The translations under genes were made by a program, and so were the position numbers. Below, one piece after another: positions 18,752 through 61,592 of a stretch of 64,000 bases of DNA. The notes under the pieces are model-generated. The model saw nothing but the letters and a program-made list of their open reading frames with translations, did no database searches and was not told where the DNA came from. The stretch is from positions 1 through 64,000 of the forward strand of contig JAUNIS010000001.1 of assembly GCA_030523325.1 (NCBI GenBank). The letters are read 5' to 3'. The number at the start of each line of letters is the position of its first letter. Position 1 is the stretch's first letter. Source of the DNA: Phascolarctobacterium sp. (GTDB lineage Bacteria; Bacillota; Negativicutes; Acidaminococcales; Acidaminococcaceae).

Positions 18752-18991
18752 AAAAACGTCCCATCGTGTTTTACACGACAGGACGTAGTTAACGCGGTAC
18801 CACCTATCTTCTCCAGCAAAAACTGAAGCTCTCAAACATTTAACGCATGTCTGCGCACTTCCCTACTATTAGTTCAGGCAGCGAGCTCCCGGACTACAAC
18901 CTAAATATCTTCGTAGCAGCTTGCACCAAACGCTACCTCTCTAAAACAAATCCAAATAGGTCCTTCCGTTCCTAGCCTGTAAATATATTAC
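18752..18991 (-). promoter_or_regulatory. T-box leader of valS
   Basis: On the minus strand the conserved T-box GGTGGTACCGCG occupies 18804-18793. It is followed by a terminator stem (arms around 18756-18768 and 18774-18786) with a run of six T. The specifier region reads GTTGTAGTC at 18900-18892; all three triplets in that frame are valine codons, matching the regulated gene. Uncharged tRNA-Val is expected to stabilise the antiterminator. Confidence 0.93.
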
Positions 18992-46579: not shown

Positions 46580-46748
46580 AGATTTGGCAAAAAGAAAATT
46601 CCCTCACGCAGTGAAGGAACAACATCTAAGAATTTCTTCATCTGCCGGTTTCTTAACCGATGGAATTGGCACCGTTCACTTGTGTGTGGTTGCCGTAGCT
46701 TCATAGGGCCAGTCCCTCAGCTACTCTGGATGAATACGATGTACAGTT
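46580..46748 (-). promoter_or_regulatory. SAM-I (S-box) riboswitch controlling metNI
   Basis: The aptamer spans about 46736-46636 on the minus strand, with the core CAGAGTAGCTGAGGGACTGG, GCTACGGCAACC, GGTGCCAATTCC and closing AGATGAA. A terminator stem (ttccttcac / gtgagggaa, about 46599-46617) with a T-rich tail follows, so high SAM should stop transcription before metN. Confidence 0.96.
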
Positions 46749-46919: not shown

Positions 46920-48578
46920 TTATTTTTTGAAATTTACGTAAGAGTTGATGAACTTATCGCTACCAGAAGCTACCATGGGTTCAACCATGTTATCGCGACC
47001 AATATTTACTTCGATTAGATAAGGTGCATTCATCTCCATGGCTTTTTCAACAGCACTAGCAAGAGCTTCAGGAGTGCTTACATGTTCACCTGCAATACCA
47101 AAGGCACCTGCATATTTAACAAAGTCGGTACAAGGAGACAGCTCGCAAGCCATAAATCTTTCTTCAAAGAAAACAGTTTGCAGTTGACGAATCATGCCGA
47201 GGCCTGTGTTATTGATAACGATGGCGATAACAGGAATATTATATTGAGCAAGGGTAAAAAGCTCGGAGCCAGTCATCTTAAAACCGCCATCACCCGAAAT
47301 ACTCATAACCTTTGCCTCGGGGCGAGCTAGCTTAGCGCCAATCGCAGCCGGCAAACCAAAGCCCATGGTTCCTAAGCCGCCGCTGGAAATAAATTGGCGA
47401 GCAAATTGAATGCGCAAATTTTGTGCTGCCCACATTTGATGTTGACCGACATCAGTAGTGATAACATAGTCTTTATCTTTAATGACAGGATTCAAGGCCT
47501 TAAAGAAAGCAGGTGCTTCTGCACTGCCACAATCTTCGTCATTAGAGGGCCAACTTTCGATTAAGTTCCACCATTCGTCAAGATTGTGTTCCTTTGTGCC
47601 TTTCTCTAAAAGGTTCAAGGTAATATTCATATTGCCTGTGATACCAAGACCCGTGCTAACATTTTTGTCAACTTCAGCCGGATCGATATCGAGATGGATG
47701 ATGTGTTTACCTTGGGTATAATTTTTGGCATCACCAGTTACGCGGTCGTTAAAACGGGTGCCCACTGCCAAAATTACATCGGCTTCGCGAATTGCATTAT
47801 TTGCTTTTTCGTGACCGTGCAAGCCTGTCAGTCCTAAGAACAGAGAACGATAGGCTGAGATAGCTCCAAGCCCCATAAGAGTGCTGACAACTGGGATATG
47901 TAATTTTTCGCACAGATGCATGGCATCGTATTCGCCATTAGCATTAATAACCCCACCACCGATAATCATTACAGGACGCTTAGCATTGTTAATTACTTCG
48001 CATGCCTTGTCAACTAATTTTTGGTCGGGCATTACCTCACGCACGGGTCTTAATTTATCTACAGTATATTCGATGGTTGCAGTTTGAACGTCACGAGGCA
48101 CGTCGATAAGCACTGGACCTGGGCGACCTGACTTAGCGATTTGAATTGCCAGGCGAATTGTCTGCGCTAAGTGAGCGGGATCCTTAACTAAAAAATTGTG
48201 TTTTGTAATAGGCATAGTGATAGAAGTAATATCAACCTCTTGGAAAGCATCATGCCCGATTAATGATTTATTTACTTGTCCCGTGAAAGCAATAACAGGA
48301 ATGGAATCGAGAAAGGCAGTTGCAAGACCTGTTACTAAATTGGTTGCGCCCGGGCCTGACGTAGCAACGCATACGCCAATCTTACCTGTTGCTCGAGCAT
48401 AGCCATCGGCTGCATGAGTTGCGCCCTGCTCGTGAGCTGTTAAAATATGTTGAATAGTTCCAGATGCACGAATTGCATCGTAAAAAGGAAGTATCGCTCC
48501 GCCTGGATAACCAAATATTGTATCAACGCCTTCTTCGGCTAAACATTTTACCATAATCTCTGCGCCAGTTAATTTCAT
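46920..48578 (-). CDS. ilvB: Acetolactate synthase, large subunit
   Basis: A 552-residue ThDP/FAD enzyme that condenses pyruvate with pyruvate or 2-ketobutyrate for branched-chain amino acids. The catalytic Glu lies in LTAHEQGATHAADGYARATG; the ThDP motif is SGDGGFKMTGSELFTLAQ ending with NN; GGLGTMGFGLPAAIGA precedes it. AAAGGA lies before the ATG. It follows ilvN, so the T-box regulates both. Confidence 0.95.
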   Translation of the reverse strand: MKLTGAEIMVKCLAEEGVDTIFGYPGGAILPFYDAIRASGTIQHILTAHEQGATHAADGYARATGKIGVCVATSGPGATNLVTGLATAFLDSIPVIAFTGQVNKSLIGHDAFQEVDITSITMPITKHNFLVKDPAHLAQTIRLAIQIAKSGRPGPVLIDVPRDVQTATIEYTVDKLRPVREVMPDQKLVDKACEVINNAKRPVMIIGGGVINANGEYDAMHLCEKLHIPVVSTLMGLGAISAYRSLFLGLTGLHGHEKANNAIREADVILAVGTRFNDRVTGDAKNYTQGKHIIHLDIDPAEVDKNVSTGLGITGNMNITLNLLEKGTKEHNLDEWWNLIESWPSNDEDCGSAEAPAFFKALNPVIKDKDYVITTDVGQHQMWAAQNLRIQFARQFISSGGLGTMGFGLPAAIGAKLARPEAKVMSISGDGGFKMTGSELFTLAQYNIPVIAIVINNTGLGMIRQLQTVFFEERFMACELSPCTDFVKYAGAFGIAGEHVSTPEALASAVEKAMEMNAPYLIEVNIGRDNMVEPMVASGSDKFINSYVNFKK

Positions 48579-48597: not shown

Positions 48598-49134
48598 TTA
48601 AACAGCTTTGTTTTCTTCAAAAACGGGCCATTCGTAACGAGATTCTTCAACACCAAGATGCTCGTCCCCTCTTTCAAGAGCAACAAGACCTGTTTGTACC
48701 ATTTCACTGATACCGTAATCTCTCATTACATTTACGAAGGCTGCAAGCTTTGCATCGTCGCCGGTTACTAAAAAGATTAAGGATTCGCCGGTTACATCAA
48801 CTGCATGAGCACGGAAAACTTCGGCAAGGCGAAGAATTTCGATACGTTTTTCTCCTGCGTGAACCTTAACCATAGCCATGCTACGTTTAGCGCTGGACGC
48901 GGGAGGAAGAACCTTTACTTTTTCAACCTCGGGAAGCTTGGCGATTTGTTTTACAACTTGGATAATTGTGGGCTCGTCCGCTTCCATAGTTACTGTCATA
49001 CGAGATAATTCGGGAGTTTGAGTTGTACCAACAGCCAAGCTGTCGATATTGTAACCACGACGAGAGAATAAACCAGCAACGCGCATCAATACGCCCGGTT
49101 GGTTTTGTACAACGATAGAAATAATTTGTTCCAT
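48598..49134 (-). CDS. ilvN: Acetolactate synthase, regulatory small subunit
   Basis: A 178-residue protein. An N-terminal ACT domain (QNQPGVLMRVAGLFSRRGYNIDSL) binds valine for feedback inhibition, and a C-terminal domain follows. The order small-then-large subunit is less common than ilvB-ilvN. AGGAGG precedes the ATG, directly after the T-box terminator. Confidence 0.95.
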   Translation of the reverse strand: MEQIISIVVQNQPGVLMRVAGLFSRRGYNIDSLAVGTTQTPELSRMTVTMEADEPTIIQVVKQIAKLPEVEKVKVLPPASSAKRSMAMVKVHAGEKRIEILRLAEVFRAHAVDVTGESLIFLVTGDDAKLAAFVNVMRDYGISEMVQTGLVALERGDEHLGVEESRYEWPVFEENKAV

Positions 49135-49149: not shown

Positions 49150-49405
49150 AACAACTTCGCCCCCATCTGGCTTGCAGACAGGGGCGAATATTTTCGCGGT
49201 ACCACCCTTATTTTAACTTCATTTTATGGAGGCGTTTACTCCACACGTAACGCTGTGCCTGCGTCAACCCCTACTACTGGTTCAGGATTGCGGCTCCGGG
49301 ACTACAACTCAAGGACTTTTCGTAACGACTTGCACCAAAATATCGTCTCTCTTACCAATATCTCCTAGGTCCTCCCCATCGTGGCCTTTATTTAATTTGA
49401 ATCTA
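49150..49405 (-). promoter_or_regulatory. T-box leader of ilvNB
   Basis: The T-box GGTGGTACCGCG lies at 49206-49195 on the minus strand, followed by a GC-rich terminator stem (cgcccc...ggggcg, 49155-49189) and a T run. The specifier region is GTTGTAGTC (49308-49300), the same valine-codon string as in the valS leader, so the unit should respond to valine starvation. Confidence 0.93.
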
Positions 49406-50551: not shown

Positions 50552-50636
50552 TGGTGCGAGTGACAGGAATCGAACCTGCACGCCGAAAGGCGCTAGATCC
50601 TAAGTCTAGTGCGTCTGCCAGTTCCGCCACACTCGC
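50552..50636 (-). tRNA. tRNA-Leu(UAG)
   Basis: 85 nt including an encoded CCA (50552-50554). The acceptor stem is GCGAGTG/CACTCGC, the anticodon stem is CTAGA/TCTAG with loop CTTAGGA giving anticodon UAG, a long variable arm (GCGCC TTTC GGCGT) is present as expected for tRNA-Leu, and the T loop reads GGTTCGATTCC. Confidence 0.97.
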
Positions 50637-55356: not shown

Positions 55357-56253
55357 CTAGCGAAAATCCGCAACGTCGACGCCTTCAGAACGTACTATGT
55401 CACGCAGATGCTCCAAGGCAGCAGCATCCGGGCGGTAAAAATCAGTTGTCGGTTGCTCAAGACCTAAGGCTTCGTATTTTATAGTACCGTACTTATGATA
55501 AGGAAGAAGCTCGATTCGTGCCTTAGGCAAATGCTCGTGTACATAGCAAGCCGTCGCACGAATATTTTCTTCGTCATCGTTAACTCCGCCAATGGTCGGA
55601 ATACGAATGACAACTCTCGCATCAACCTCGTTAAGACGACTAACATTCGCCAAGGTTTGCTCGTTGCCAAGTCCCGTATAAAAGCGATGCTTCTCGTCAT
55701 CCATGTGCTTAATATCCATAAAGATTAAGTCCATACGAGCCAAAATATGCTTAACCTTGTCAAAATTAAAATAACCACAGGTTTCAATGTCCAAGCTATA
55801 GCCCAAATCGTAAAGCTTTTGACTTAAATAATCAAGAAGCTCCGTCTGATAAGTAGCCTCGCCGCCTGAAAAAGTTACCCCGCCATTACTACCTCGTAAA
55901 AATGTAGCATCCTTTTCCACAGCCTTAATTAAATCATCCGCATCGTGATAGCTCACCAAAAATGAACGAGCTCCCTTAGGACAAGCAGCGACACAGGCAC
56001 CGCAACTAATGCAATGCTCTCGCTGTAAATTTAAATTGATGCCGATATGTTGAGGACAAACCTTCGCGCAAGCCCCACAGCCAATACAATTACGCTCGTA
56101 CCAGCCAACCTTTTGAGTTGCTTGCATGCCCTCGGGGTTGGAACACCATTTACAATGCATAGGACAGCCAGCTAAAAATAAAATTGTGCGAATACCATCC
56201 CCATCATTAACCGAAAATGGCTGAGCCTGCATGACATAGCCTTTTACACCCAT
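55357..56253 (-). CDS. Glycyl-radical-enzyme activating protein (radical SAM)
   Basis: A 298-residue activase with the radical SAM motif CPMHCKWC (CxxxCxxC) near residue 30, a two-cluster ferredoxin insert (CIGCGACAKVCP and CISCGACVAACP), and the SAM-binding GGVTFSGGEAT. It installs the glycyl radical on the enzyme encoded upstream. The ATG at 56253 has GGAGGAG upstream. The last 36 or so codons appear to have come with the island, because an older version of the same end lies at 52278. Confidence 0.93.
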   Translation of the reverse strand: MGVKGYVMQAQPFSVNDGDGIRTILFLAGCPMHCKWCSNPEGMQATQKVGWYERNCIGCGACAKVCPQHIGINLNLQREHCISCGACVAACPKGARSFLVSYHDADDLIKAVEKDATFLRGSNGGVTFSGGEATYQTELLDYLSQKLYDLGYSLDIETCGYFNFDKVKHILARMDLIFMDIKHMDDEKHRFYTGLGNEQTLANVSRLNEVDARVVIRIPTIGGVNDDEENIRATACYVHEHLPKARIELLPYHKYGTIKYEALGLEQPTTDFYRPDAAALEHLRDIVRSEGVDVADFR

Positions 56254-56291: not shown

Positions 56292-56320
56292 GACGCAGCC
56301 CTTTTTTCAAAAGGCTGCGG
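56292..56320 (-). terminator. Attenuating hairpin between glycyl radical enzyme and activase
   Basis: Stem cgcagcc/ggctgcg (56294-56300, 56313-56319) followed on the minus strand by TCCTTTTAT. The weak tail fits partial termination, giving less activase than enzyme. Confidence 0.5.
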
Positions 56321-56344
56321 CTCCTCATAATTTATAAATACTTT

Positions 56345-58729
56345 TTAGTACATTCCGTGTGCAGATCTAGCCATGATGGAGTCTTGCATTTCACGAGAAA
56401 GATTTACCCAATGAGCAGAATAACCAGCAACACGAACAAGCAAATCTTTATAATTTTCCGGATGAGCTTGCGCGTCCTTCAATACCTCGTTATCGATAGT
56501 ATTGAATTGAACGTGGAAAGCCCCCAGGCTAAAGTAAGATTGCAGCATATTGCCAAAATTAGCCTTGCCTCTCGGAGTAGCCAAAAGCTCGGGGCTAAGT
56601 CTTTGGTTAAGAAGAATGCCACCAGAATGAATGTCGTGATTCATTTTTGCTGCAGATTTCATGGCTGCAAGACAAGTACCTTTATCCGTGCCGGTGTAAG
56701 GGGATACACCTTCGCTGATGGGTTCCATTGCCTTACGTCCATCAGGAGTTGCACCAAGAACTTTACCAGTAGGCATATAGTTAGAGATACCCATGAAGGC
56801 AGTGATATAGTTATGGCCGTAGGTATCTTTGTATTTGATAACCTCTTGATGATAGAAATCAGCCAATTTTTTCGCGATGCCATCAACATAATCGTTATCA
56901 TTACCATATTTAGGAACTGCTTGAGCTTTGGCACGCAGCTCTTCGTAGCCTTCCCAGTTGGCATTCAATGCATCGATAATCTCTGACAAAGTCGTAACCT
57001 TGTCTTCGTAAACAAGCTTTTTAATTACAGCAAGACAATTAGCAGTTACAGACAGACCAACACCAGTGAATACAGGACCGATATTATATTTAGCGCCACC
57101 TTCAACAAGGTCCTTGCCGTTAATCATGCAATATTCGTTGCAAGCAGAAAGGAAAGGACGATAACCTTGCTCACGGTGAATTTGCTGAGCAGTGTTCAAG
57201 GAAATTACCCCATGCTTAACCATATAAGCAAATTGTTTCTTCCAAGCAGCGATGATTTCTTCGTAAGATGTAAAGGTCTTAGGATCTTTTTCCTCCAGTG
57301 CAACTCTTACACCTGAGAGACGGGACTTGCCTTCGTTAAGAGCAAATTCCAAAGCAGCAGTAAAGCTGATATTACAAGAAGAGGTCCATTCGTAGGTTTT
57401 TCTGGAGTGAGGTACTACGCAGCCACAGTTATTCCAATCCTTGGAGTCTTGTGGGTCATAGCCCAGGTTAGCCAGCATTTGATAACCAGTTCTATCGCTA
57501 TGAATTGCCGGGAAGCCGCAGCCAGTAGAAACAAGGTCGGCAACAGCCATGAGAAATTCTTGCGGACAATCCGCAGGAACACGACAAGACAAAGTCGGTT
57601 GATGGCTCTTAAGATTTTTGGTAGCTTTGATACACATATAAGTTACATCGTTAATAGCACAGCTGCCGTCAACCTTGGTACCGCCAATGGTAAGGTTTTC
57701 GAAATTGGTGTAACCAGCGAAGAAACCTGTAGTGTTCTTGGAAATAGTCCAAGCCCATTCGGAATATTTGAGCCACAAGAGTTCGATAAGTTCTTGAGCA
57801 GCAGCCTCGTCAATTTTTCCTGCTTCCAAATCTTTCTTGTAGTAAGGATATACAAATTGGTCGAAGCGACCTACGTTGAGAGCCAAACCATTTTCGGAGA
57901 AAATTGCGCACATTTGGGTGAACCAAATCAATTGGATTGCTTCTCTGAAATTAGTGGGCGGGTTTTCGGGAACTACAGCCAGTACCGCAGCAATTTCTTC
58001 AAGTTCTGCCTTGCGAACAGGGTCCTTTTCTACAGCAGCCATTTCTAAAGCTTTGTCTGCATAACGTTTACCCCAAAGAATAACGCCTTCACAAACGAGG
58101 ACGATTGCTTTATAATAATTAATTTTTTGAGTATTGGTGCCATCGGTCTCATCCAAAACAGCCAGATGCTCTTCGGCTTCCTTCTTAATACCGCCAAAGC
58201 CTTTCGGTAAAATTACGTCGATATAGTCCGGAGACATTTCGCCGATACCATTACGCCATTTAGAGTCCGTATCAATAAAACCAGTGTCGACGCCAATTAA
58301 TTTAGTAGCTTCAGATGTACGTGCTAAGAAAATTTCCTCGATGGATTTACCTTTCCAATAGGGGAAAATTTCCTCGCGCAATTCTTTGATTTGTTCTTCA
58401 GAAATATCGTAAGGATCTTGAGGACGAGTGGGGAAAGTATCCATCTCGTCATTAATCCATTTCCAGCCAAATTCCGGAGTAACAATACCACATTTACGGT
58501 ACTCACCGGTTGTGCCTACGATTAATTCGCCGTCCCAAATTGTTACAGTTACTTCGCTGCAAGCATCCTTAAATGCTTGTGCTGTACGGATAATTTGCGG
58601 GAGACCCTCAGTTCTCTTAAAAGAGTTGGTCCAGCTACGTGCTCTCTCTGTAGAGATGTGAGGCATGTTGTCCACATAATATTGTCTAATTTTTTCAACT
58701 CTTGCGGTACTACCTTGTGCTGTTTTCAT
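56345..58729 (-). CDS. Glycyl radical enzyme, PFL2-like, substrate unassigned
   Basis: A 794-residue glycyl radical enzyme. The C-terminal radical site is VRVAGYSAHW with Gly769. The active-site loop reads DWNNCGCVVPHSRK: the thiyl Cys is probably Cys437, but position +2 is Val439, where glycerol dehydratase, CutC, HypD, isethionate lyase and arylacetate decarboxylases have Glu. Gly/His/Arg-rich substrate regions such as SDRTGYQML precede it. AAGGAG precedes the ATG. It lies between the GntR gene and the activase in one operon. No microcompartment genes or small subunit accompany it, so the substrate is open. Confidence 0.88.
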   Translation of the reverse strand: MKTAQGSTARVEKIRQYYVDNMPHISTERARSWTNSFKRTEGLPQIIRTAQAFKDACSEVTVTIWDGELIVGTTGEYRKCGIVTPEFGWKWINDEMDTFPTRPQDPYDISEEQIKELREEIFPYWKGKSIEEIFLARTSEATKLIGVDTGFIDTDSKWRNGIGEMSPDYIDVILPKGFGGIKKEAEEHLAVLDETDGTNTQKINYYKAIVLVCEGVILWGKRYADKALEMAAVEKDPVRKAELEEIAAVLAVVPENPPTNFREAIQLIWFTQMCAIFSENGLALNVGRFDQFVYPYYKKDLEAGKIDEAAAQELIELLWLKYSEWAWTISKNTTGFFAGYTNFENLTIGGTKVDGSCAINDVTYMCIKATKNLKSHQPTLSCRVPADCPQEFLMAVADLVSTGCGFPAIHSDRTGYQMLANLGYDPQDSKDWNNCGCVVPHSRKTYEWTSSCNISFTAALEFALNEGKSRLSGVRVALEEKDPKTFTSYEEIIAAWKKQFAYMVKHGVISLNTAQQIHREQGYRPFLSACNEYCMINGKDLVEGGAKYNIGPVFTGVGLSVTANCLAVIKKLVYEDKVTTLSEIIDALNANWEGYEELRAKAQAVPKYGNDNDYVDGIAKKLADFYHQEVIKYKDTYGHNYITAFMGISNYMPTGKVLGATPDGRKAMEPISEGVSPYTGTDKGTCLAAMKSAAKMNHDIHSGGILLNQRLSPELLATPRGKANFGNMLQSYFSLGAFHVQFNTIDNEVLKDAQAHPENYKDLLVRVAGYSAHWVNLSREMQDSIMARSAHGMY

Positions 58730-58828: not shown

Positions 58829-59500
58829 TTAAAGTTCGGGATGCTGAGCAAGATACTCGGAAAGACGTTGGCCTGCGTTCAGCAAATGCTTGCGTAAAAT
58901 AGTCTTGGCCAATCTTTTATCACCCTTACGACAAGCCTCGAGCAGATTCCTGTGTTCTGCGTGTGAATCATCCTTGTGCAACATTCCGTCTAAGTACAGT
59001 GTCGTATAGCGACTCACATGGCTGTGCAGCTTAGCGATAAGCTTTAACAAAGTCTCGTTGCCACAACGTTCGTAAAGTTTGTTGTGAAACTGCTGATTGA
59101 TTTTACTGTAAAGTACAGGCTCCGTGCAAAACTCTTCTTCATCGAGCAAACCTTCCAGGATAAAAAAATCTTCTTCTGTGAGGTTGGGCATAGAACGAGC
59201 AAGCGCTTCACATTCTGTTATCTGACGGACGTCAAAAATTTCTAAAGCCTCCTCAAGAGTCATGCGTTTAACATTGGCTCCCTTGTTAGCCGTAAACTCG
59301 ATAAGGCCCTCTCCCTCTAGCGCCTTCATGGCCTCGCGCAGGGTACTTATACTAACGCCATAGCGCTGAGCTAGTGTGTCCTGCTTAAGCACCATTCCTC
59401 CCTTTAGCGTGCCGTCAAGAATCTCCTGTCTGAGCTTGATAATAATCATTCCAGCCATTGATAAATGGTTTCTTAAATCGTATGCGAATAACTTTTCCAT
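58829..59500 (-). CDS. GntR-family regulator with FCD domain
   Basis: A 223-residue protein. It has a winged helix N-terminus (IIKLRQEILDGTLKGG, then YGVSISTLREAMKALEGEGLIEF) and an all-helical FCD ligand domain with likely metal-binding His residues (INQQFHNKLY, SHAEHRNLLEAC, LRKHLL). It is divided from the glycyl radical gene by 99 bp and shares its direction, so it probably controls the operon. The ribosome binding site is poor, and the predicted transcript starts only a few bases before the ATG, so translation may be nearly leaderless. Confidence 0.88.
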   Translation of the reverse strand: MEKLFAYDLRNHLSMAGMIIIKLRQEILDGTLKGGMVLKQDTLAQRYGVSISTLREAMKALEGEGLIEFTANKGANVKRMTLEEALEIFDVRQITECEALARSMPNLTEEDFFILEGLLDEEEFCTEPVLYSKINQQFHNKLYERCGNETLLKLIAKLHSHVSRYTTLYLDGMLHKDDSHAEHRNLLEACRKGDKRLAKTILRKHLLNAGQRLSEYLAQHPEL

Positions 59501-59547: not shown

Positions 59548-59590
59548 AGAAAATTTTCTAATGTATACAATATACATTAGAAAATTTTCT
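59548..59590. promoter_or_regulatory. Perfect 43-bp palindrome, likely GntR operator
   Basis: Two exact 20-bp arms (59548-59567 and 59571-59590) flank a 3-base centre. The core ATGTATAC-AATATACAT resembles the TGTATACA words bound by FCD-type GntR proteins. It lies just upstream of the gntR promoter. A terminator is less likely because it is AT-rich and no T run follows. Confidence 0.65.
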
Positions 59591-59744: not shown

Positions 59745-60080
59745 TTACTTGTTGGCTAACAGTTTAGCACATGCCGCACAAGCCGGACAGTCGCAATAAT
59801 CCGCTCCCTTGGCTTCAAGTTCAGCGGCGTGAGCTCCTATAGCAGCGGCAGTATCTTTACCTAAAGCAGCAATTACAGGTTCTAACTTCATTGCAGCAGC
59901 AACCTGTGCCGGTGTCATAATATCAACTTTAGCTTCTGCAATTAAATTTTCCCTAGCTACATCTTCGTCATCTTTGCCGATTGATTCTAAATATTTTTTA
60001 GCAGCACTTTTAAGTTCTGCACAAGCAGAGGGCGCGTTGTAAGCTTCTTGGGCAGCTTCTACAAAAACAGACTTGTTCAT
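59745..60080 (-). CDS. Small helical protein with C-terminal Cys cluster, unknown
   Basis: A 111-residue, Ala-rich, probably helical protein whose C-terminus carries a CDCPACAAC cluster, a likely metal site. AAGGAGG precedes the ATG. It has its own terminator. I recognise no family with confidence; such small proteins are sometimes annotated loosely as heat-shock or chaperone-like. Nothing here supports that name. Confidence 0.65.
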   Translation of the reverse strand: MNKSVFVEAAQEAYNAPSACAELKSAAKKYLESIGKDDEDVARENLIAEAKVDIMTPAQVAAAMKLEPVIAALGKDTAAAIGAHAAELEAKGADYCDCPACAACAKLLANK

Positions 60081-60213
60081 GATGAATCCTCCTTATATTA
60101 AACTCGAACTGAGTATAGCATACCCCATTCGCAAAATCAATAATTAACTCCAAATGCAAAACATCATGCTCTCTGCGAGCCAAATTTTTTTTTAGCAGGA
60201 CTTACATATATCG

Positions 60214-61113
60214 CTAACGTATTATCTTGCCAATTCTATTAAAGATTTGTAAAGCATTTTTATAGTAAAAATCTTCATGGTATTTTTCTGGAATAACGTT
60301 CCCGAGAATTTCAATATAGGCAGGAATGTTAACTAAGGGCCAGTCGCTACCATACATTACTTTGCTGTAATCACCCATATATTGCAGCCAGGTACGCAAA
60401 TTATCGAAAACACCTTGATACTTTTTTAATGCATCCGCAACATTTGGCTTGCCGGATATTATGCCTGATAAATCCAACGCCACATTTTTATTCTTGGCAG
60501 CTACCTCGCAAGCATCAATAAACCAAGGACAACCACAATGCGCAAGAACAAATTTTGTGTCAGGAAAATCTGCAGCTGCATCATCTACCGTCAGAGGATG
60601 GCTATATTTTAAATGAGCCCTAGGCCAAGCAGTATCTCCTGTATGTATCACGATAGGCACGTCATAAGCTTTTGCCAATTCGAATAAAGGCCAATGTATT
60701 CTATCATTTACGTAGACAGAATTATATCCAGGATATAGTTTAATTCCCATTACATGGCTTTTTTCTATCGGAAGCTTCAGGTAATACTCAAATTCGAGAG
60801 CAGTTTTTTCAGCAAGAGATTCGTTAATAAGGTCGCTCTGTACTCCTAAACAATAACCTATGTTATCTCCTTGATTAAAATTTTCTTCGTCAAATGGACC
60901 ACTTAGATCTATAAAACGAGGCTGAATTCCACCATAACGCACACTGCCATCATAAGTATTACCCATGGCTATACTAAAGATAATATTATTCTCCTTGGCA
61001 ATTTCTTGCCAACAATCAGAAGTGTTCTCATGTCCGGCCGCCTTAGCCAAAATATCGAAGCCATCTACATTAAAATAATGAAAATGCGCATCTATTATCG
61101 GTCCGTTATACAT
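60214..61113 (-). CDS. Amidohydrolase family 2 metal-dependent hydrolase/decarboxylase
   Basis: A 299-residue TIM-barrel enzyme. It has the metal-binding DAHFHYF near residue 8, VIHTGDT with a following His, LAHCGCPWF, and YGSDWP near the C-terminus, the usual set for amidohydrolase-2 proteins (hydrolases and non-oxidative decarboxylases). The ATG at 61113 has AAAGGAG upstream. It follows the thioesterase gene by 60 bp and is probably co-transcribed. The substrate is unknown. Confidence 0.8.
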   Translation of the reverse strand: MYNGPIIDAHFHYFNVDGFDILAKAAGHENTSDCWQEIAKENNIIFSIAMGNTYDGSVRYGGIQPRFIDLSGPFDEENFNQGDNIGYCLGVQSDLINESLAEKTALEFEYYLKLPIEKSHVMGIKLYPGYNSVYVNDRIHWPLFELAKAYDVPIVIHTGDTAWPRAHLKYSHPLTVDDAAADFPDTKFVLAHCGCPWFIDACEVAAKNKNVALDLSGIISGKPNVADALKKYQGVFDNLRTWLQYMGDYSKVMYGSDWPLVNIPAYIEILGNVIPEKYHEDFYYKNALQIFNRIGKIIR

Positions 61114-61172
61114 TTCTTGCTCCTTTAACATTTAATACAGCGATAAGCTCTTTGTAAACTTCTTTTAAGCAC

Positions 61173-61592
61173 TTAATGCTGTTCTCTATTTCTTAAAACG
61201 TAAAACGTTCCGGTCGCGGTAGCGTAAAGAGTTTCTTTGTCATCAAAGCATTTTGCCTCGGTTATTATGGATGTTCTACCTACGTGAATTATATCAGCGG
61301 TTGCATAAACCAAAGTATTTGTTTTCGCTCCACGAATGAAGTTAATATTAAGGTTCATTGTGACAACGTTTTTTCCTTGAATCATACAACTAAGTCCCAT
61401 TACTGTATCTAAAAGACCGCTAATCGCACCGCCATGTGCTATGGCATGAGCATTGCTAATGTCTTCCGTTATTAACATGGATAAAGTTAATTTCTTGTCC
61501 TTTATCCCTGCAACTTTAATGCCGCAAAGCTTACGCCAACCAGTTTGTTCGCAGCGATTATGAAGGATTTCTAATATTTCTTGTTCGTTCAT
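61173..61592 (-). CDS. PaaI-type hotdog thioesterase
   Basis: A 139-residue hotdog protein with the PaaI core AHAIAHGGAISGLLDTVMGLSC and the following VTMNLNINFIRGAKTNTLVYATADIIHVGRTSIITEA. It is expected to hydrolyse an acyl-CoA, often an aromatic one. The ribosome binding site is weak (GGGAAAA). It pairs with the amidohydrolase gene. Confidence 0.85.
   Translation of the reverse strand: MNEQEILEILHNRCEQTGWRKLCGIKVAGIKDKKLTLSMLITEDISNAHAIAHGGAISGLLDTVMGLSCMIQGKNVVTMNLNINFIRGAKTNTLVYATADIIHVGRTSIITEAKCFDDKETLYATATGTFYVLRNREQH

Follow-up and report, generated by a model that had tools for sequence, protein, structure and literature searches.

Within a stretch of 64,000 nucleotides of Phascolarctobacterium sp. 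DNA, hereafter the window, one open reading frame encodes a glycyl radical enzyme (GRE) whose Cys loop lacks the glutamate expected two residues past the thiyl cysteine. The CxE motif is conserved among GRE eliminases (PMC7077986, PMC8473560), and the Glu-to-Gln mutants HypD E436Q (PMC7077986) and IslA E470Q (PMC8473560) are dead. It is by this glutamate that GRE eliminases and decarboxylases are recognized and that their mechanism is explained. A large conserved clade with the eliminase fold that has dropped it would mean either new radical chemistry or a movable catalytic base. We asked what the enzyme is, how widely the replacement is conserved, and which reaction it could serve.

The window ORF is an intact GRE of a conserved subfamily, here called CVV, in which valine replaces the CxE glutamate within an eliminase fold (Table 1). 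It starts at an ATG with an AAGGAG Shine-Dalgarno sequence on its 5' side, and its product matches the Pfam families PF02901 (PFL-like, 700 bits) and PF01228 (Gly_radical, 108 bits). The hallmarks of the superfamily, namely, the barrel domain, the C-terminal RVxGY glycine and the loop cysteine, are all present by Pfam and by the fold, with Cys437 and Gly769 kept in 93 of 93 loci, and the gene for a cognate radical SAM activase adjoins that of the GRE. The AlphaFold2 model has a mean pLDDT of 93.2 and a pTM of 0.92.

Table 1. Features of the GRE locus, in window coordinates
Feature	Position	Strand	Basis
Glycyl radical enzyme, CVV subfamily, 794 aa	56345-58729	-	ORF, Pfam and AlphaFold model
Substrate-site segment, K157-W158-R159 to E164	58238-58261	-	Alignment; residue roles from PMC8473560
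Cys loop C435-G-C437-V438-V439-P440-H441, thiyl Cys437	57407-57427	-	Alignment; 93/93 loci
Val439 codon, in place of the CxE glutamate	57413-57415	-	CutC alignment; 93/93 loci
Radical glycine Gly769 in RVAGYS	56423-56425	-	Pfam Gly_radical match; 93/93 loci
Putative hairpin between GRE and activase, 11-bp stem, weak T tail	56294-56319	-	Consensus match only
Radical SAM activating enzyme, 298 aa from the ATG at 56253	55357-56253	-	TIGR02494, 300 bits (cutoff 174); Shine-Dalgarno sequence and start read
GntR/FCD regulator, 223 aa, upstream of GRE on the same strand	58829-59500	-	Pfam GntR and FCD
Predicted GntR operator, inverted repeat with 20-bp arms, core TAATGTATATTGTATACATTA, overlapping its own promoter region	59548-59590	.	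Repeat and shared GTATAC

From the thiyl cysteine to the next proline, the loop aligns without gaps with those of the CutC structures (GCVVP versus GCVEP), and Val439 therefore occupies the position of CutC Glu491. The loop is preceded by W432-N-N, and Val439, together with the entire CGCVVPH loop, recurs in all 93 orthologous loci of our conservation set (54 to 88% identity to the window GRE), each reading Cys-Val-Val where eliminases have CxE. The sequence-only reading, which placed valine at the general-base site, thus stands, and a one-off mutation, chance or a sequencing error is ruled out by these 93 loci and by the monophyly of the clade. Indeed, in a tree of 49 GREs (built by a quick method and containing long branches), the CVV proteins form a single clade with a support of 100, beside CutC and the N-methyl-hydroxyproline dehydratases with a support of 94. 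An identity gap sets them apart: in a sample of 398 genomes of the phylum, clade members are at least 55% identical and the next GREs at most 41%, and the latter carry a glutamate two residues past the cysteine in 25 of the 25 loops read. The best 80 loci from a scan of genome contigs share 56 to 88% identity; plasmid-collection records added the orthologues of Peptoclostridium acidaminophilum (WP_025437039.1) and Acetoanaerobium noterae. Within the GTDB family to which the window belongs, orthologues are about 49 to 61% identical, and every loop that is covered reads CGCVVPH.

Besides Val439, more than 20 tested positions of the active-site region, residue 442 being left out of the test, are invariant in the 93 loci, which come from several phyla. 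They lie before the loop (D155, S156, K157, W158, R159, E164, L282, N285, W325, I329, N332, F337, F343, and H376) and from the loop onward (C435 to H441, R443, T449, A644-F645-M646-G647, E673, and G769). A GRE that has lost catalysis, kept as a radical spare part or as a regulatory protein, would fit the missing family catalytic residue. The thiyl cysteine, the radical glycine and the pocket are nonetheless invariant and the activase is kept, which points to an active enzyme under strong purifying selection; we consider loss of function the least probable of the explanations weighed here.

By record titles, the clade extends over Bacillota, Alphaproteobacteria, Synergistota (Synergistaceae) and one metagenome-assembled genome of Spirochaetota (Spirochaetia). 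Human and animal gut bacteria (Intestinibacter, Evtepia, Anaerotignum, and one Clostridioides difficile strain) carry members of the clade, as do the classic amino acid fermenters Peptoclostridium and Acetoanaerobium; several clade hosts are Stickland-type amino acid fermenters (PMC3091704, PMC4056300). Given this distribution, the reaction may fill a gap in anaerobic amino acid metabolism. Two copies are interrupted: that of L066 has one TAA, and that of Terrisporobacter petrolearius (L108:10001-12352) is broken by one in-frame TGA near codon 380, beside a position where other copies have Cys, which may reflect sequencing error, decay or recoding. In another genome, a second GRE adjoins the CVV GRE (L104:13565-16285); it is arylacetate-decarboxylase-like, with a GGCLET loop and its own activase.

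Structural comparison ranks the eliminases first. With VIA-align, the model matches CutC (Z 56), glycerol dehydratase (54.9), propanediol dehydratase (54.3), HypD (53.4) and the N-methyl-cis-4-hydroxyproline dehydratases 8iof (52.9) and 8id1 (51.1) ahead of BSS (42.1) and PFL (37); the fold is therefore of the eliminase type, in line with the placement by sequence. The nearest solved loops returned by PDB fragment searches all contain the glutamate (CGCVET in 8id1, GCVEP in Klebsiella pneumoniae CutC and in 9rco, and CGCIEP in HplG). None of the NCBIfam models reaches its cutoff: CutC, the best, scores 724 bits against 1050, HypD 558 against 1100, with the CxE absent, and PFL 165 against 994, with CGC in place of an adjacent Cys pair, while HpsG, HpfG, IAD and HPAD all fall far below. 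Clustering with a characterized enzyme that also has a CGCVVP loop had been named as the result that would overturn the sequence-only reading; a search across every PDB chain and NCBIfam equivalog turned up no such enzyme, and no paper on the clade was found in the open-licence literature searched. The CVV clade is a new GRE subfamily, covered by no solved structure or NCBIfam equivalog, and it probably carries out a so far unassigned reaction.

PFL and the X-succinate synthases are likewise GREs without the CxE glutamate, and the chemistries of both were weighed. In a PFL-type thiolysis or transfer at a C-C bond, Cys435 and Cys437 would jointly attack a 2-oxo acid. PFL indeed uses two loop cysteines (CCVS in L018), and branched-chain amino acid genes adjoin the GRE in Mogibacterium-type genomes. 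However, Cys435 and Cys437 are not adjacent, and the CGC arrangement is also present in HplG and in N-methyl-hydroxyproline dehydratases that bear CxE, which weakens Cys435 as a marker of a PFL-like pair. Together with the weak similarity to PFL and its distance in the tree, this makes a PFL-type reaction improbable. Radical C-C bond formation, by addition to fumarate or another alkene as in the X-succinate synthases, would agree with a pocket that looks hydrophobic, but BSS and MAS rank far below the eliminases (Z 40 to 43 versus 56), and no X-succinate-type small accessory subunit was recognized at about 90 loci by clustering and selected Pfam scans of ORFs of at least 80 aa; we regard this chemistry as very improbable. 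The earlier view that the protein is neither a PFL nor a succinate synthase agrees with both the PFL score and the structural ranking.

The substrate site offers further clues. Glu164 aligns with CutC Asp216, HypD His160 and IslA Gln193, a common substrate-interacting site, and an arginine just upstream (IslA 189, HypD 156) contacts the substrate's anionic group, with no intermediary in IslA and via water in HypD (PMC8473560); in the alignment, Arg159 falls within one residue of this arginine. Lys157, Glu164 and Asn285 are common to the L128-type proteins and absent from CutC. The L128-type proteins are orthologues of 8id1 (1253 bits) and act on an N-methylated cyclic amino acid; Lys157 and Glu164 also occur in 8id1 and 8iof themselves. 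W158, F645, M646, V439 and H441, which are found only in the CVV clade, would on balance make the site more hydrophobic; Arg159 is a further invariant addition of the clade. As judged from the alignments, the active-site residues suggest a zwitterionic, amino-acid-like ligand without a hydroxyl to deprotonate.

The main rival is a 1,2-eliminase of ordinary mechanism, either a dehydratase or a C-N lyase, with Glu164 as its catalytic carboxylate in place of the lost CxE glutamate. The nearest relatives are all eliminases, the equivalents of CutC Phe395 and Thr502 (F343 and T449) are kept, and Glu164 is invariant, one methylene longer than the Asp216 of CutC at the same site, and aligned with a HypD residue, His160, that sits 2.5 Å from the CxE glutamate (PMC7077986). 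Yet the N-methyl-hydroxyproline dehydratases have a glutamate at this site and keep that of CxE too, the Glu-to-Gln mutants of known eliminases are inactive, and the replacing residue is hydrophobic, with no polar stand-in. A moved base is thus a serious contender that we nevertheless hold to be rather unlikely.

Our best guess, tentative and given somewhat less than an even chance, is a base-free radical lyase or isomerase that acts on a zwitterionic, amino-acid-like substrate and starts its reaction at a carbon that bears no hydroxyl. The activase would install the radical on Gly769, from which it would pass to Cys437, and the Cys437 thiyl would then abstract a hydrogen from a carbon of the substrate, whose carboxylate may be held by Lys157 and Arg159 and whose amine may be held by Glu164. 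The hydrophobic Val439, along with Phe645, Met646 and Leu282, would occupy the usual base position; we propose that valine is tolerated there because no ketyl radical is needed. The substrate radical would fragment or rearrange, as in a C-C lyase, a C-N lyase or an isomerase, and the product radical would take the hydrogen back from Cys437. The product could feed straight into central amino acid metabolism, and this would account for an operon without dedicated downstream enzymes. In its broader form, to which we give a slightly lower chance, the proposal is that of a new GRE reaction type, a base-free, thiyl-initiated cleavage or rearrangement of a nonhydroxylated amino-acid-like zwitterion inside the eliminase fold, which would constitute a new anaerobic route by which gut and sediment bacteria degrade amino acids.

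At most loci, the module consists of a regulator, the GRE and the activase, with nothing else in common. GntR homologues (36 to 42% identity) lie directly upstream of the orthologous GREs of P. acidaminophilum (L142), L154 and L155, at gaps of about 8 to 26 bp compared with 99 bp in the window, so that the gntR-GRE-activase order is shared by four distant loci, the window included. A GTATAC sequence occurs 54 to 68 bp upstream of gntR in four of four GntR-type loci, inside the inverted repeat in the case of the window; a first-order Markov model puts its chance of occurring in 100 nucleotides at 1.6 to 3.1% per locus. L154 and L155 also have TGTATACTTTCGAAAA in common upstream of gntR. The GRE had been proposed to be under the control of its own GntR regulator, and this synteny and the shared predicted operator support the proposal; in the window, the upstream GntR probably controls its own operon. 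Most of the clade has an XRE-cupin regulator instead (35 of the 65 loci whose flanks are complete). At almost every locus, the activase gene lies downstream of the GRE gene. The window's activase carries CxxxCxxC and two ferredoxin-type 4Fe-4S motifs, and the ORF-finder start at 56328 would add 25 aa. The activase ORFs of L033 to L112 and L143 fall into two length groups, about 246 to 283 and about 298 to 312 aa; the L143 activase (267 aa) has on reading no ferredoxin-type 4Fe-4S motifs, unlike that of the window.

Several neighbors relate to amino acids: aspartokinase 28 to 42 bp upstream of the GRE (L041/L042), IlvE 40 to 130 bp upstream, with LeuB-IlvA-IlvE in L044-type genomes, diaminopropionate ammonia-lyase (L041 and L084), an AgcS carrier (L040), an M20 hydrolase with DUF5058 (L160 and several Clostridia) and, in P. 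acidaminophilum, a cysteate-type racemase. These are only hints, since the neighbors differ between lineages. A link to aromatic biosynthesis, considered from the aro operon of L033, was dropped because a tRNA gene separates this operon from the GRE, making the association probably accidental. No T-box or other Rfam element that could hint at the substrate was found upstream of the GRE in the window and the 19 loci searched. The GntR-GRE unit has on its upstream side a gene pair for an Amidohydro_2 enzyme and a PaaI-like hotdog thioesterase (60214-61592, minus strand), and the genes at 59745-61592 (hypothetical protein, amidohydrolase, and thioesterase) were rejected as module parts, being absent from the clusters that recur at other loci. 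Elsewhere in the window, on the minus strand, are a T-box leader (49177-49391) upstream of ilvN-ilvB (48598-49134 and 46920-48578), a SAM riboswitch just beyond ilvB (46635-46736) and a second T-box near 18.8 kb (18776-18982).

The closest GRE, that of L033, is 88% identical, while the chorismate synthase of the L033 genome is just 51% identical to that of the window genome, which points to acquisition of the GRE by horizontal transfer. No GRE match was found in six congeneric genomes, several of them incomplete; L092 (Acidaminococcaceae bacterium) belongs to the same GTDB family as the window assembly. tRNA genes are found near the module (L033:7355-7438, L034:7321-7404, and L084:3091-3172) and at 50552-50636 of the window, and, with the patchy distribution, they suggest that the module spread by tRNA-associated integration. 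A second glycine-radical domain (72 bits) is encoded elsewhere in the window's genome (G000), on contig C22 (62654-62962), in a 722-aa frame without a PFL-like domain, possibly an anaerobic ribonucleotide reductase.

Among known systems, PFL, with its CCVS loop, and the X-succinate synthases share the missing glutamate with the CVV clade but are distant from it in both sequence and fold score. CutC is the best sequence match in the PDB and NCBIfam (about 38 to 41% identity) and the closest fold (rmsd of 1.8 over 792 residues). In the window GRE, however, CutC Tyr208, Asp216 and Glu491 are replaced by Ser156, Glu164 and Val439, so that only the Thr502 equivalent remains of this set; Tyr506 is replaced by Asn453, a position held by Ser or Thr in 17 of 93 loci, and no microcompartment genes were seen at CVV loci. 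HypD resembles the window GRE in its fold, its amino acid substrate, the arginine near the same site and its frequent occurrence as a standalone GRE, but it keeps and needs Cys434-Val-Glu436 and has His160 in place of Glu164. The N-methyl-cis-4-hydroxyproline dehydratases (8id1 and 8iof) lie on the same branch of the tree (about 34 to 38% identity) and share the D/N-x-K...G-E motif that includes Lys157 and Glu164, and the L128-type orthologues also have Asn285, Trp432 and the CGC of the loop. Unlike the CVV clade, these dehydratases lack the Trp158-Arg159 pair and keep the glutamate, reading CGCVET where the window GRE reads CGCVVP.
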